Assembly (NCBI GenBank): GCA_017632345.1
Contig: JAGBRL010000011.1
Span: 62,001 to 126,000 of the forward strand
Direction of reading: 5' to 3'
Source of the DNA: Paludibacteraceae bacterium
GTDB taxonomy: Bacteria > Bacteroidota > Bacteroidia > Bacteroidales > Paludibacteraceae
DNA length: 64,000 bases
The notes under the pieces: generated by a model
The model's input: only the letters and a program-made list of their open reading frames with translations
Told to the model about the DNA's origin: nothing
Database searches by the model: none
Translations under genes and position numbers: made by a program
Shown: piece by piece, positions 34,780-41,228 of the stretch
Numbering within the stretch: the stretch's first letter is position 1
Layout: each line of letters starts with the position of its first letter

Positions 34780-35874
34780 TTACGGCACTGCCGTCATCTT
34801 TGTGAACCTTATTCCGTCTGTCTCTTTTATCTTTAGGATGAAGATGCTGCCGCCTTTCAGTCTCGCTCTGAAATTATCGATTCCATCGGGAGAAACGGAT
34901 GTTATAAATCGTCCGAAAACATCAAATATGTCAATGCTTTGAATATTGTCAGAGCCGGATATTAGTGTCATGCCTGTGTTTGTGCCGGGACATGGAGTGC
35001 CGCCTGTTGTTCCGCCAACACAAAAGCCGCACTCGTCGAGATAAGCCTCTCCGTTCCAATATCCTATGCAGTCTTGTTTGCAAGATGAGTTTTTCTCTAT
35101 GCCTGTTGTTCCGCCGGAGCAGACTCCGCAATTGTCTATCTCCGCCGTGCCGCCAATAACTCCGGAACAGTCCGGGCAGTCAGATTCTTGGAACTGCATG
35201 CCGGTAGAAACCTCATTGCCTTCTATGTACGGGATATCTTTGACAATTATACTTTCGCCAGACACGGCTGTTAGTCTGAATGTGTACGGGCCGCATTTGC
35301 TTTTATCCTCGTCTATGCCCTCCAGCATTACAAAATAGTTGTACATTTCTCGATGAATTGGGATAAAAGAGCCGTCTCGCTTCTGATATTCCACCATGCT
35401 TAGGGCATGCCTGAATCCTCTGAACTGGGCTTTGAAATAGTATGGGCTTGTTCCTTCCGCATAAAAAATCTTGATGTCATCCTCCGTGTCGCAAGGCACA
35501 AAACGCCACTTTATCGGTATGCGTCCGTCTTTCAGTTCTGCAAGTTGAATAAATGCGTCGGTGCTCAGGTCAATATCTCCGTGCAGGCACTCCGGACACC
35601 GGTCAACCACCTTGAGCGTTATCTCGCCTTTAGGTCCGAGCACCCTCACGCATGCCCCGCACGCCGCACTGCTGTCATACTGGACATGGTTCATTGCGCA
35701 GTGGTAAAAATCGCCTTCGTCCACCGGAATTCCGCAGTTGCCGCCCTCACCGCCCGCAACACCGCCATACTGAGTGCCTTCGCCTTCAAACCATAGTTCG
35801 CTGCAGTTCTCTTGTTGAGCAAAAACTGAAGCAAAGGATAAAATTGTCAATGACAAAGCAAAAAAAATTCTCAT
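34780..35874 (-). CDS. Expansin-like protein with T9SS type A sorting domain
   Basis: 364 residues from the ATG at 35874, which gives a clean signal peptide (RIFFALSLTILSFASVFAQ). Domain 1 (~20-125), the double-psi barrel, has GEGTQYGGVAGG, AACGACVRVLGPKG and DRCPECLHGDIDLSTDAF; the Asp of the latter is the family's key acidic residue. Domain 2 (~130-225) is beta-sandwich, with YYFKAQFRGFRHALSMVE and YNYFVML. Two Cys-rich linker repeats (DNCGVCSGGTTG, DECGFCVGGTTGG) follow. The last ~65 residues have IDIFDVFGRFITSV and end in KMTAVP, a type A T9SS domain. Expansins loosen cellulose and hemicellulose networks without hydrolysis. Confidence 0.88.
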   Translation of the reverse strand: MRIFFALSLTILSFASVFAQQENCSELWFEGEGTQYGGVAGGEGGNCGIPVDEGDFYHCAMNHVQYDSSAACGACVRVLGPKGEITLKVVDRCPECLHGDIDLSTDAFIQLAELKDGRIPIKWRFVPCDTEDDIKIFYAEGTSPYYFKAQFRGFRHALSMVEYQKRDGSFIPIHREMYNYFVMLEGIDEDKSKCGPYTFRLTAVSGESIIVKDIPYIEGNEVSTGMQFQESDCPDCSGVIGGTAEIDNCGVCSGGTTGIEKNSSCKQDCIGYWNGEAYLDECGFCVGGTTGGTPCPGTNTGMTLISGSDNIQSIDIFDVFGRFITSVSPDGIDNFRARLKGGSIFILKIKETDGIRFTKMTAVP

Positions 35875-36040
35875 AAGCAAGAAACTAAAAGCAACTTCAA
35901 TAAAAGTCAAGATGATGCTGAGAGACATTTTGTCTATATTGCTCATGTTTGCAGAGGAAGATGCGGACATCGTAGCAGAGCAAGTGCGTGCAAGATAGAC
36001 AAATGTGCTCAAAAGTATCATAAAAGAATTTCAGTATATG

Positions 36041-38571: not shown

Positions 38572-39414
38572 TTATAATGCAAGTGTAATGCGTTCCGCCT
38601 CAATCTCTTCGTGAAGAAATACAGATGCAGATTTTCTGAACTTTTCTATTGCTTCTGTTGTGTAAAATTTGCAAGATGCACTCCTGCCTATATGATTCTC
38701 CATATCGCCATGTCTTGACAAATAATTTTCAAGGCTTTTAGCCACAATTTCGCCTTGCGAAACTATATTCATCTCCTTCGGCACATACTTTCGTATCTTG
38801 TCAATCAACAAAGGATAATGTGTGCAAGCCAAAACAATAGTGTCTATGTCCTTGTCTTGTGATAAAAGACGATCCAGCTCCTTTTTCACAAAATAGTCCG
38901 CGCCGTCTGAGTTATATTCAGAATTTTCCACCAGCGGCACCCACATCGGGCAAGCGTTACCGTTAACTGTTATGTCAGGAAAGAGCTTTTTAATTTCAAT
39001 TGGGTAAGATTCAGACTGTATAGTTCCAACCGTACCGAGAATTCCCACGTGCCTGCTTTTTGTTATAGAGTCAATAGCCTCGACTGTAGGACGAATCACG
39101 CCCAGCACTCTGCGCTCATTGCCCCATTGCGGCAAGTCGTTTGTCTGAATACTTTTCAGCGCCTTGGCAGAAGCTGTATTGCAGCCGAGTATTACCAGCG
39201 GGCAGCCCAAGTCAAACAGTTTCTTCACAGACTGTTTTGTGAACTCATACACCACATCAAAAGAGCGTGTGCCGTACGGCGTGCGCGCATTGTCTCCCAA
39301 ATACACGTAATCGTACTGAGGCATCAGCTCCCTTATTTTCTGCAATATAGTAAGACCACCGTACCCAGAGTCAAAAACCCCTATCGGACCAGTCTGCATA
39401 GGATATTGTACCAT
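38572..39414 (-). CDS. murI: Glutamate racemase
   Basis: 280 residues. FDSGYGGLTIL gives the first catalytic Asp-Ser pair, ILGCNTASAKAL the first catalytic Cys and VLACTHYPLL the second Cys with its His. YLGDNARTPYG is also typical. The enzyme makes D-glutamate for peptidoglycan. ATG at 39414, with a minus-strand TAATTTTG box (39448-39455) about 35 bp upstream. In Bacteroidetes murI often lies downstream of OmpH and BamA genes; here it stands alone. Confidence 0.97.
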   Translation of the reverse strand: MVQYPMQTGPIGVFDSGYGGLTILQKIRELMPQYDYVYLGDNARTPYGTRSFDVVYEFTKQSVKKLFDLGCPLVILGCNTASAKALKSIQTNDLPQWGNERRVLGVIRPTVEAIDSITKSRHVGILGTVGTIQSESYPIEIKKLFPDITVNGNACPMWVPLVENSEYNSDGADYFVKKELDRLLSQDKDIDTIVLACTHYPLLIDKIRKYVPKEMNIVSQGEIVAKSLENYLSRHGDMENHIGRSASCKFYTTEAIEKFRKSASVFLHEEIEAERITLAL

Positions 39415-39538: not shown

Positions 39539-39570
39539 TTTGGAGAAGTCGTAAAAGCATGCTACATTTG
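39539..39570 (+). promoter_or_regulatory. Complete promoter for the hairpin RNA
   Basis: TTTG at 39539-39542 and TACATTTG at 39563-39570 are separated by 20 bp. The start would be near 39577. Confidence 0.7.
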
Positions 39571-39576
39571 CATAAT

Positions 39577-39836
39577 GATGTTAGTTGCAACGCATCGAAT
39601 GTATAACTTTAAAAACATAAGTATAATTAGAAAAAGAGTAAAAGTTTATAAGTCATAAATAGAAGCATTTTAGCTTTTTTCTTCTTCCCTTTAAATTTGG
39701 CGATTTAAGTATCTGAAGAGAAATGTTAAAGTTGCTCACGCTTTAGCGTGGGCTTAACTTTATTTCTTGCAGATACAAGGTTACGCCAAATACCTAAGGG
39801 AAGCGGGAAACAAGTTAAGTTTCACGCTTTTTTTTA
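39577..39836 (+). ncRNA. Non-coding RNA with long imperfect hairpin (possible 6S-like RNA)
   Basis: Core 39684-39803 folds into one rod. CTTCCCTT (39684-39691) pairs with AAGGGAAG (39796-39803); ATTTGGCG (39695-39702) with CGCCAAAT (39784-39791); GTATCTG (39709-39715) with CAGATAC (39770-39776); AGAAAT (39719-39724) with ATTTCT (39762-39767); AAAGTT (39728-39733) with AACTTT (39756-39761); GCTCACGC (39734-39741) with GCGTGGGC (39746-39753) around a TTTA loop. An intrinsic terminator follows at 39801-39836. There is no coding frame. A long rod with internal loops and no SRP, tmRNA or RNase P motifs suggests 6S RNA, but the large central bubble of textbook 6S is not obvious. The 5' ~100 nt are unpaired in this model. 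RNA gene likely; family uncertain. Confidence 0.7.
39801..39836 (+). terminator. Intrinsic terminator of the hairpin RNA
   Basis: AAGCGGGAAAC pairs with GTTTCACGCTT (one G/A mismatch), then a run of eight T. Confidence 0.85.
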
Positions 39837-39870
39837 TGCCTAAATTTAAACAGATTAAATTTCGTTGTTT

Positions 39871-40224
39871 ATGAAAGGAAAGGTTTTAATTTTAATCACA
39901 TCTCTATTGTTACTATCTGGGTGTGGTTTGAAAAAAACAGTCTCAATGTATGAGACAAGGCAACCATATTATGGTGAAATAACTGTTGTTCCTCTGGGGC
40001 AATCTATACCTGAAGGATATAAAATGATAGGTACAGGCTCTTATGGAGAAAAAGGCTTTACAAGAACTAAAAACTGCACACTGGAAGCCATTATAGAACA
40101 GGCTCGTGCAGATGCGAAAGAGAAAGGTGCGTCGCTAATAAGTATCATGAAAATAAAAGAGCCCAGCATATGGACAACATCATGTTACTATGTGACTGTA
40201 TCATTCTATATAAAAGAAAATTAA
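39871..40224 (+). CDS. Small lipoprotein of unknown function
   Basis: 117 residues from the ATG at 39871. Lipobox LLLSGC at residue ~18. The mature part is about 100 residues, with GYKMIGTGSYGEKGFTR, then ALEA-like helix IIEQARADAKEKGASLISIMKI and a C-terminal strand YYVTVSFYIK. This strand-helix-strand order with GA at the helix end is reminiscent of RcsF/DUF4156-type small lipoproteins, but no defining Cys pair is seen and the match is weak. It starts 35 bp after the terminator of the hairpin RNA and is followed 29 bp later by another lipoprotein gene, probably in the same operon. Confidence 0.75.
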   Translation: MKGKVLILITSLLLLSGCGLKKTVSMYETRQPYYGEITVVPLGQSIPEGYKMIGTGSYGEKGFTRTKNCTLEAIIEQARADAKEKGASLISIMKIKEPSIWTTSCYYVTVSFYIKEN

Positions 40225-40253: not shown

Positions 40254-41228
40254 ATGAAATTTTTTAATGTTTTTTTTAAGTTTTTATTGATAGCTTCCTT
40301 AGTGGGCTTTTTTACAACTTCTTGTAGCAAAGAAGATGACGATGACAAAGATGAAGAATTTAAAGAAGAGGAAAAGGAAGAGGTAATTAATTTTCACGTG
40401 GATGTCACAAATTTCAGAGGCGAAACTATTTATTTTTTCGTTGAAGACGGCACTACTAAAAGCATTTTATCTGGAAATGTTTTAACATGGGATCTATCTC
40501 ACAAATCTCAAACAGGTTACGTAAAAGTAGGGGTTAAATTAGCCAATGGGGAAATATTAGACCAAAAAAGCATTGGAGAAGGAGATGTTTATAAACTTGT
40601 TGTGAATAAAGAAAATTCTGACTCTGATGTGTCTGATGATGTTGAAAAATGGAGGCTTATCGTTGAATTAACAAATCTCAGCAGCAATTTTATCTATTTG
40701 TATGTTGACGGAGAACAAACAGAAATAATCGGTTCGGGTAAAGTGTATAGTTATTCTAAAAATATTATCAATCAGTCAGAATCGCTTGTTGAGGTTAAAA
40801 ATGCAGATGGAATTGTGCTATCCTCTAAAAAAGTAAGCAAAGACGGGAACTTCGTAGAAACCATAAAAGACCCGGTCTTTACTATTACAAAGATTGTGTT
40901 AAACAAATGGAGTGCGGATAATTTATGGGACGATCCAGACCCTTGGTTTGAGGTGAAAGTTGGAGATAATGTAGTAGGTAGAAGTATTTATAAACCAGAC
41001 GTTGAGGACGGTAGTGTATGTACTTTTTCTGACTTGTCCATTACAGTTGACGAGATTTACTCTCAGGTAAGTTTTGTTCTTTGGGATCATGACACAGGTT
41101 ATTCTTCTGCTGGCTCAACTTACATCTCTGGGCTTCAAACTACGAATTTTAGTAAATATTGGAGAAAAGACTCGTTCACTATGAGTATTTCCGATTTAGA
41201 GTTTACTGTATATGGTACTTGGAAATAA
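40254..41228 (+). CDS. Lipoprotein with two tandem beta repeats and a C2-like C-terminal domain
   Basis: 324 residues. Lipobox FFTTSC, then an acidic Asp/Glu spacer (SKEDDDDKDEEFKEEEKEE). Two similar units of ~75 residues follow: VDVTNFRGETIYFFVEDG with SILSGNVLTW (from ~48), and VELTNLSSNFIYLYVDGE with IIGSGKVYSY (from ~137). The last ~115 residues, FTITKIVLNKWSADNLWDD to the end, resemble a C2-type beta-sandwich with several acidic residues that could bind calcium. Found beside another lipoprotein; no known function. A strong terminator follows. Confidence 0.75.
   Translation: MKFFNVFFKFLLIASLVGFFTTSCSKEDDDDKDEEFKEEEKEEVINFHVDVTNFRGETIYFFVEDGTTKSILSGNVLTWDLSHKSQTGYVKVGVKLANGEILDQKSIGEGDVYKLVVNKENSDSDVSDDVEKWRLIVELTNLSSNFIYLYVDGEQTEIIGSGKVYSYSKNIINQSESLVEVKNADGIVLSSKKVSKDGNFVETIKDPVFTITKIVLNKWSADNLWDDPDPWFEVKVGDNVVGRSIYKPDVEDGSVCTFSDLSITVDEIYSQVSFVLWDHDTGYSSAGSTYISGLQTTNFSKYWRKDSFTMSISDLEFTVYGTWK

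Follow-up and report, generated by a model that had tools for sequence, protein, structure and literature searches.

A rod-shaped candidate leader RNA present in multiple copies across Bacteroidota

The 64,000-nt stretch of a Paludibacteraceae contig analysed here, called the window below, carries one copy of a structured leader RNA family that, judged by sequence comparison, is spread across the phylum Bacteroidota. With a probability of roughly 0.78, the window copy is the 5' leader, an untranslated region of about 295 nt, of a lipoprotein mRNA whose coding sequence starts at position 39871. The family is apparently undescribed. It is absent from Rfam 15, in keeping with the suggestion of an unrecognised class in the first-pass annotation of this DNA; no prior description was found in the open-licence literature, and, with subscription papers outside that search, an earlier description is possible. 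Bacteroidota dominate gut and rumen communities and, to our knowledge, only a small number of cis-regulatory RNAs have been described from the phylum.

The window copy and its surroundings

The element is preceded by a promoter on the plus strand (39539-39570), composed of a -33 TTTG at 39539-39542, a spacer of 20 nt and a -7 TACATTTG at 39563-39570. This arrangement matches the Bacteroidota consensus of -33 TTTG and -7 TAnnTTTG (PMC7366714), so that the upstream promoter of the first-pass annotation holds, and it places the expected transcription start at about 39576. The gene murI occupies 38572-39414 on the minus strand, and the promoter, rod and 3' hairpin fill a stretch of 298 nt between it and two predicted lipoprotein genes. 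No open reading frame of 60 or more codons overlaps 39539-39836, confirming the earlier impression of a non-coding segment. The gene behind the leader (39871-40224, plus strand) is an open reading frame for a predicted lipoprotein of 117 amino acids (MKGKVLILITSLLLLSGCG...) with no Pfam family. It starts 35 nt past the U-run of the element, and no TAnnTTTG motif lies in that gap. A second open reading frame on the same strand (40254-41228) encodes a predicted lipoprotein of 324 amino acids and is possibly part of the same transcript. Elsewhere in the window, an open reading frame on the minus strand (34780-36021) resembles, by eye, a bacterial expansin-type secreted protein.

The core of the element (39656-39843, plus strand) matches the covariance model of the family, which includes stems P2, P3 and P5, with 146 bits; the window copy is itself in the training set of the model, and the relatives were initially identified from DNA similarity alone. 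The central part of the fold is a rod of nested stems at 39684-39803, supported by fold energy and, for P2, P3 and P5, by covariation. From the base upwards it consists of P2 (8 bp, 39684-39691/39796-39803), P3 (8 bp, 39695-39702/39784-39791), P4 (7 bp, 39709-39715/39770-39776), two blocks of 6 bp each (39719-39724/39762-39767 and 39728-39733/39756-39761) and the apical P5 (8 bp, 39734-39741/39746-39753), which contains the only G-U pair of the rod. All six paired blocks, including the single wobble, were thus recovered where they had first been noticed. The element folds at -77.4 kcal/mol, compared with -49.5 +/- 4.0 for its dinucleotide shuffles (z -7.0), and none of 200 shuffles equalled the native value.

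The rod is flanked by shorter elements. A small hairpin, P0 (AAGC-AUUUUA-GCUU, 39663-39676), is conserved with covariation among the relatives, and its AAGC can alternatively pair with the GCUU at the start of the U-run, forming P1b. On the 3' side, a hairpin (GCGgGAAAC/GTTTCaCGC, 39803-39827) followed by eight U (39803-39835 in total) has the appearance of a terminator and competes with P1b. The outermost stem, P1, joins CATAAA at 39654-39659 to TTTATG at 39833-39838, beyond the U-run, and both P1 and P1b are closed in the MFE fold computed for the read-through RNA. Across 121 relatives the two P1 strands score 16.4 with their own partners against 13.6 +/- 0.31 with swapped ones, and in the subclass described below as carrying a tail, the 3' arm pairs with that tail (13.9 for own against 11.9 +/- 0.22 for swapped partners). 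Because P1 uses bases past the U-run, and own partners fit better than swapped ones, the comparison shows the read-through RNA to be functional, and the structure does not stop at 39836, where the first-pass annotation had placed the end of the RNA. The terminator it described is present in the window as a 3' hairpin with eight T, but only part of the family has one.

Distribution of the family

Searching 61 genomes by DNA similarity alone located the element in five more members of the window's family, with six copies in one (G022) and five in another (G025). The pattern TTTGGCGAYTN{56,84}GGTTACGCCAAAYACC recovered at least 119 loci in named genomes. Nearly all of them are in Bacteroidales (Alistipes and other Rikenellaceae, Paludibacteraceae, Muribaculaceae, Prevotellaceae, Bacteroidaceae, Tannerellaceae and Lentimicrobiaceae), and two Chryseobacterium isolates were also matched. 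The collections of viral contigs, phages and plasmids that we searched contained no copy. A covariance model (R1) found matches in 88 of the 120 genomes of the window's family, where one genome can have as many as 22 copies, and in 40 of the 394 genomes sampled across the phylum. R1 captured only part of the pairing; a second model (R2), built on a wider alignment, found matches in 124 of the 294 genomes of the order, its copy numbers per genome being lower bounds. The genome of the window contains at least three copies by R2, namely the window copy (139.5 bits) and copies of 71 bits (C78) and 40.5 bits (C35), and all three precede lipoprotein genes. Nearly all of the sequence data come from metagenome-assembled genomes, and many leader matches lie near contig ends.

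Comparison at the window's own site, which the first-pass annotation had suggested through the murI-flanking region of related genomes, was uninformative. In a synteny comparison for an empty site, the neighbourhood at murI was not conserved, and among the relatives examined there was no convincing case of a leader upstream of murI; the window copy is therefore not comparable at its own site.

Covariation of the paired regions

Base pairing was assessed for a structure named by hand (P1b, P2, P3 and P5), in an alignment of 99 distinct sequences drawn from several families. Over these four stems 94.6% of the cells are paired, although P1b is paired in only 83%, and two-sided changes occur in 25 of the 28 pairs. 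Compensatory cells number 563, compared with 150.8 +/- 12.3 in shuffled alignments and at most 87 when the partners are slid, which bears out the expectation that relatives of a structured RNA would show compensatory base changes. Because the model used to fit the alignment already contained most of P2, P3 and P5, the counts lean towards those stems; an effect this large, and P3 sequences that differ among subfamilies (TTTGGCG/CGCCAAA, CTGGTA/TACCAG, TCGAC/GTCGA and TGGAC/GTCCA), are more than such a bias could produce. G-U cells are far commoner than A-C cells, at 124:3 in P5 and 17:4 in P2, which shows selection on the RNA of the plus strand. P5 is rich in G-U pairs, and P3 is almost free of them, with one G-U among 751 cells and 747 Watson-Crick cells.

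Position relative to genes and subclasses

The next gene lies close by and on the same strand in 118 of 124 loci, and the distance from the leader to the start codon is conserved. Of 122 loci, 98 have a TAnnTTTG motif ahead of the RNA, where 10.6 would be expected, and three have one in the gap from the U-run to the start codon, where 5.2 would be expected. With the promoter upstream of the RNA only, the downstream gene appears to have no other ordinary promoter, and this placement, together with the close co-directional gene, argues for the RNA being an mRNA leader. The description of the element as a stand-alone RNA is made unlikely by the same observations: 118 of the 124 relatives sit just 5' of a co-directional gene, and 119 of 122 are without a TAnnTTTG between RNA and gene. 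The suggested tie to the lipoprotein gene is strengthened, the window leader being directly 5' of that gene, on its strand, with a promoter only upstream.

The copies fall into subclasses that differ at the 3' end. The terminator-like hairpin is found in 43 of 72 tail-less copies, the window copy included, in eight of 44 copies that carry a tail between rod and start codon, and in none of the six copies of the CGGTAAG subclass. The tail contains a pseudoknot before the start codon that matches the Rfam family DUF805b, with 49.2 bits in L066 and 38.1 bits in L018 (cut-off 35.6); the scores of L045, L029, L050 and L113, at 27-34 bits, are under that cut-off. The window copy gave no DUF805b match in the Rfam search, permissive cut-offs included. 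Tail copies (L045, L029, L018 and others) also share a conserved TTTGCCTATGAARCAT in the 5' part of the leader, with a stop within a few codons. Read as ATG AAA CAT and so on, it is a possible tiny upstream open reading frame (MKH..) about 30-40 nt past the expected transcription start. In four loci outside Bacteroidales (L241, L243, L244 and L250), the leader lies between a divergent gene for a small, XRE-like HTH protein and a SusC-like gene of about 1000 codons, as judged by eye from the open reading frames, and this three-part layout recurs in all four.

Genes behind the leader

The downstream genes are diverse. Among 114 of them Pfam recognises 60 families, the most frequent being Lcl_C/FISUMP-type and MmeI-type methyltransferase domains, with single or few fimbrillin, CsgG, OmpH and trypsin-like proteins. 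A signal-peptide-like N-terminus was found in 88 of 116 genes by a simple hydrophobicity rule, a rough measure made without a trained predictor or matched background. PADLOC assigns mad2, of the MADS anti-phage system, to eight downstream genes, for three of which NCBIfam agrees on MAD2, and it also reports several other DNA methyltransferases. Proteins of about 1000 amino acids behind several copies in genomes of other families read, from their sequences, as SusC/TonB receptors. There is no metabolic theme common to these genes, which argues against an ordinary metabolite riboswitch.

Comparison between close species shows sites where the leader and its flanks are kept while the gene is replaced. 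In two species of one genus (G025 and G076), leaders at several orthologous sites show 94-99% identity, and their left flanks align. Homology ends where the leader ends in L207/L220, L209/L222 (leader 82% identical) and L211/L225, and the downstream genes differ in L208/L221 too. In another pair (L280/L282, from G018 and G070) leader and flanks share 92-93% identity; the homology extends past the start codon by about five codons, beyond which the genes are unrelated up to the right flank. The same gene is retained in L212/L230, L210/L223, L263/L278 and L281/L283. The breakpoints of exchange lie anywhere between the U-run and roughly the sixth codon of the gene, and no site-specific recombination is seen. 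Within G025, an identical gene start stands behind different leader cores at L215 and L218, and a genome may contain repeats of the genes that follow leaders. The contigs of these two loci (C16 and C6) both end soon after the leader, in the identical gene start.

Discussion

We infer that the leader decides whether, or how well, the downstream gene is expressed, whatever that gene is. For copies resembling that of the window we tentatively propose an attenuator step acting through conditional termination. In this subclass the 3' hairpin (39803-39827) overlaps P1 and P1b, and the two arrangements would be mutually exclusive. With P0, the 3' hairpin and U8 formed, the transcript would stop at about 39835. 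With P1 and P1b closed, the 5' AGAAGC taking GCUUUU and CAUAAA taking UUUAUG, the hairpin would be blocked and transcription would read through into the lipoprotein gene. The balance might be set by a factor recognising the conserved rod, with its AAA/ACC and AUUU/GGUA loops next to P3 and the apical UGCUCACG/CGUGGGC. Given the strong terminator-like hairpin, the window copy could also release an RNA of about 260 nt. The strength of the terminator is not a conserved trait of the family, and attenuation as stated cannot be the mechanism of the whole family.

The lack of a general terminator also makes processive antitermination or transcript protection the main rival to the attenuator step, the leader assignment being the same under both. 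EAR and put are processive antitermination leaders, structured 5' RNAs indifferent to the gene downstream. By analogy, the rod leader could work similarly, its RNA loading a factor on the RNA polymerase or shielding the mRNA, so that foreign and exchangeable genes would be read without any switching; comparison through Rfam found no sequence relation to either. A function independent of the gene would suit 60 Pfam families among 114 genes and the replacement of genes behind the leader, as well as a rod that is conserved without a single conserved expression platform. We regard this reading as less likely than not; against it, no NusG-type or other partner was identified and many of the downstream genes are short.

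Other readings dispense with the leader altogether. The RNA might be a terminated sRNA of about 260 nt, acting in trans or sequestering a protein, its place before genes being incidental or historical. Its own promoter, and the strong terminator-like hairpin with U8 seen in the window and in 43 of 72 tail-less relatives, would fit such a role, and multicopy trans-acting sRNAs such as FopS occur in Bacteroides (PMC11697453). Against this stand the co-directional genes at 118 of 124 loci, which appear to have no ordinary promoter of their own, the P1 pairing that spans the U-run and the subclasses devoid of a terminator, all of which make the sRNA improbable. Still less probable is a hairpin used as DNA, either as a small mobile palindrome or as an attC-like recombination site. 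A dispersed multicopy hairpin whose adjoining gene is replaced would be expected of such an element, and the strict Watson-Crick character of P3 (747 cells against one G-U) would suit it. However, the wobble in P5 and P2 is strand-specific, promoter and start-codon distance are conserved, the breakpoints vary instead of showing the fixed recombination point of attC, and the phage, plasmid and viral collections searched gave no match. A variant of 6S RNA acting on RNA polymerase, the identity first suggested for this element, has the rod shape alone in its favour and can be practically dismissed. Neither 6S (RF00013) nor 6S-Flavo (RF01685) matches anything in the window or its genome; the RF00013 search found matches in five control genomes and RF01685 in none, so that the latter negative is weaker. 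The family, moreover, reaches 22 copies per genome, where 6S RNA would be present in one or a few, and lies nearly always directly 5' of a gene. In the window, only two tRNAs exceed the Rfam 15 cut-offs, and permissive cut-offs yield chance-level matches.

The mRNA leader that we favour can be set beside several known systems. DUF805b (RF02914, clan CL00115), a candidate cis-regulatory pseudoknot, matches the stretch from rod to start codon in one subclass; it covers 35 nt only, whereas the rod of about 185 nt is outside Rfam, and the window copy and tail-less copies are without DUF805b. The present family would place the DUF805b motif as part of a larger leader. FopS and GibS resemble the rod family in being multicopy in Bacteroidota, and FopS also has its own TAnnTTTG-type promoters (PMC11697453). 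FopS (RF04319) is, however, an RNA of 65-70 nt that acts in trans on susC mRNAs (PMC11697453) and is not a leader. The window has no sequence match to FopS or GibS, and their size together with this lack of match rules them out as the same family. A FopS-like sRNA of 49.6 bits (cut-off 56) was noted in another sequence, beside a tRNA cluster (L046:3148-3214, minus strand). The 6S and 6S-Flavo RNAs share a rod-like hairpin with the present family, which is multicopy, placed in the 5' leader and unmatched by their models.

Integron cassettes with attC likewise combine variable genes with a conserved imperfect hairpin. The rod leader differs in occupying dispersed single loci, with the hairpin and a promoter 5' of the gene, wobble pairing at the RNA level and variable breakpoints. 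As a tentative reading of the gene exchange, the leader may serve as an expression socket, fixed at many chromosomal sites into which genes for surface proteins or anti-phage functions are plugged and replaced by recombination. The same pattern would arise at hypervariable loci under selection for novel surface proteins, with no role of the RNA in the exchange. If the socket reading is true, one RNA-level control would apply to each incoming gene, and the family would be a dispersed counterpart, based on RNA, of the integron platform.

The rod family would place many surface, lipoprotein, SusC-like and restriction/MADS genes under one RNA-level control, and it marks loci of gene exchange between close species. 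Through its covariance model, its promoter and compensatory mutants of P3, it would offer a computable handle on the expression of newly acquired genes.
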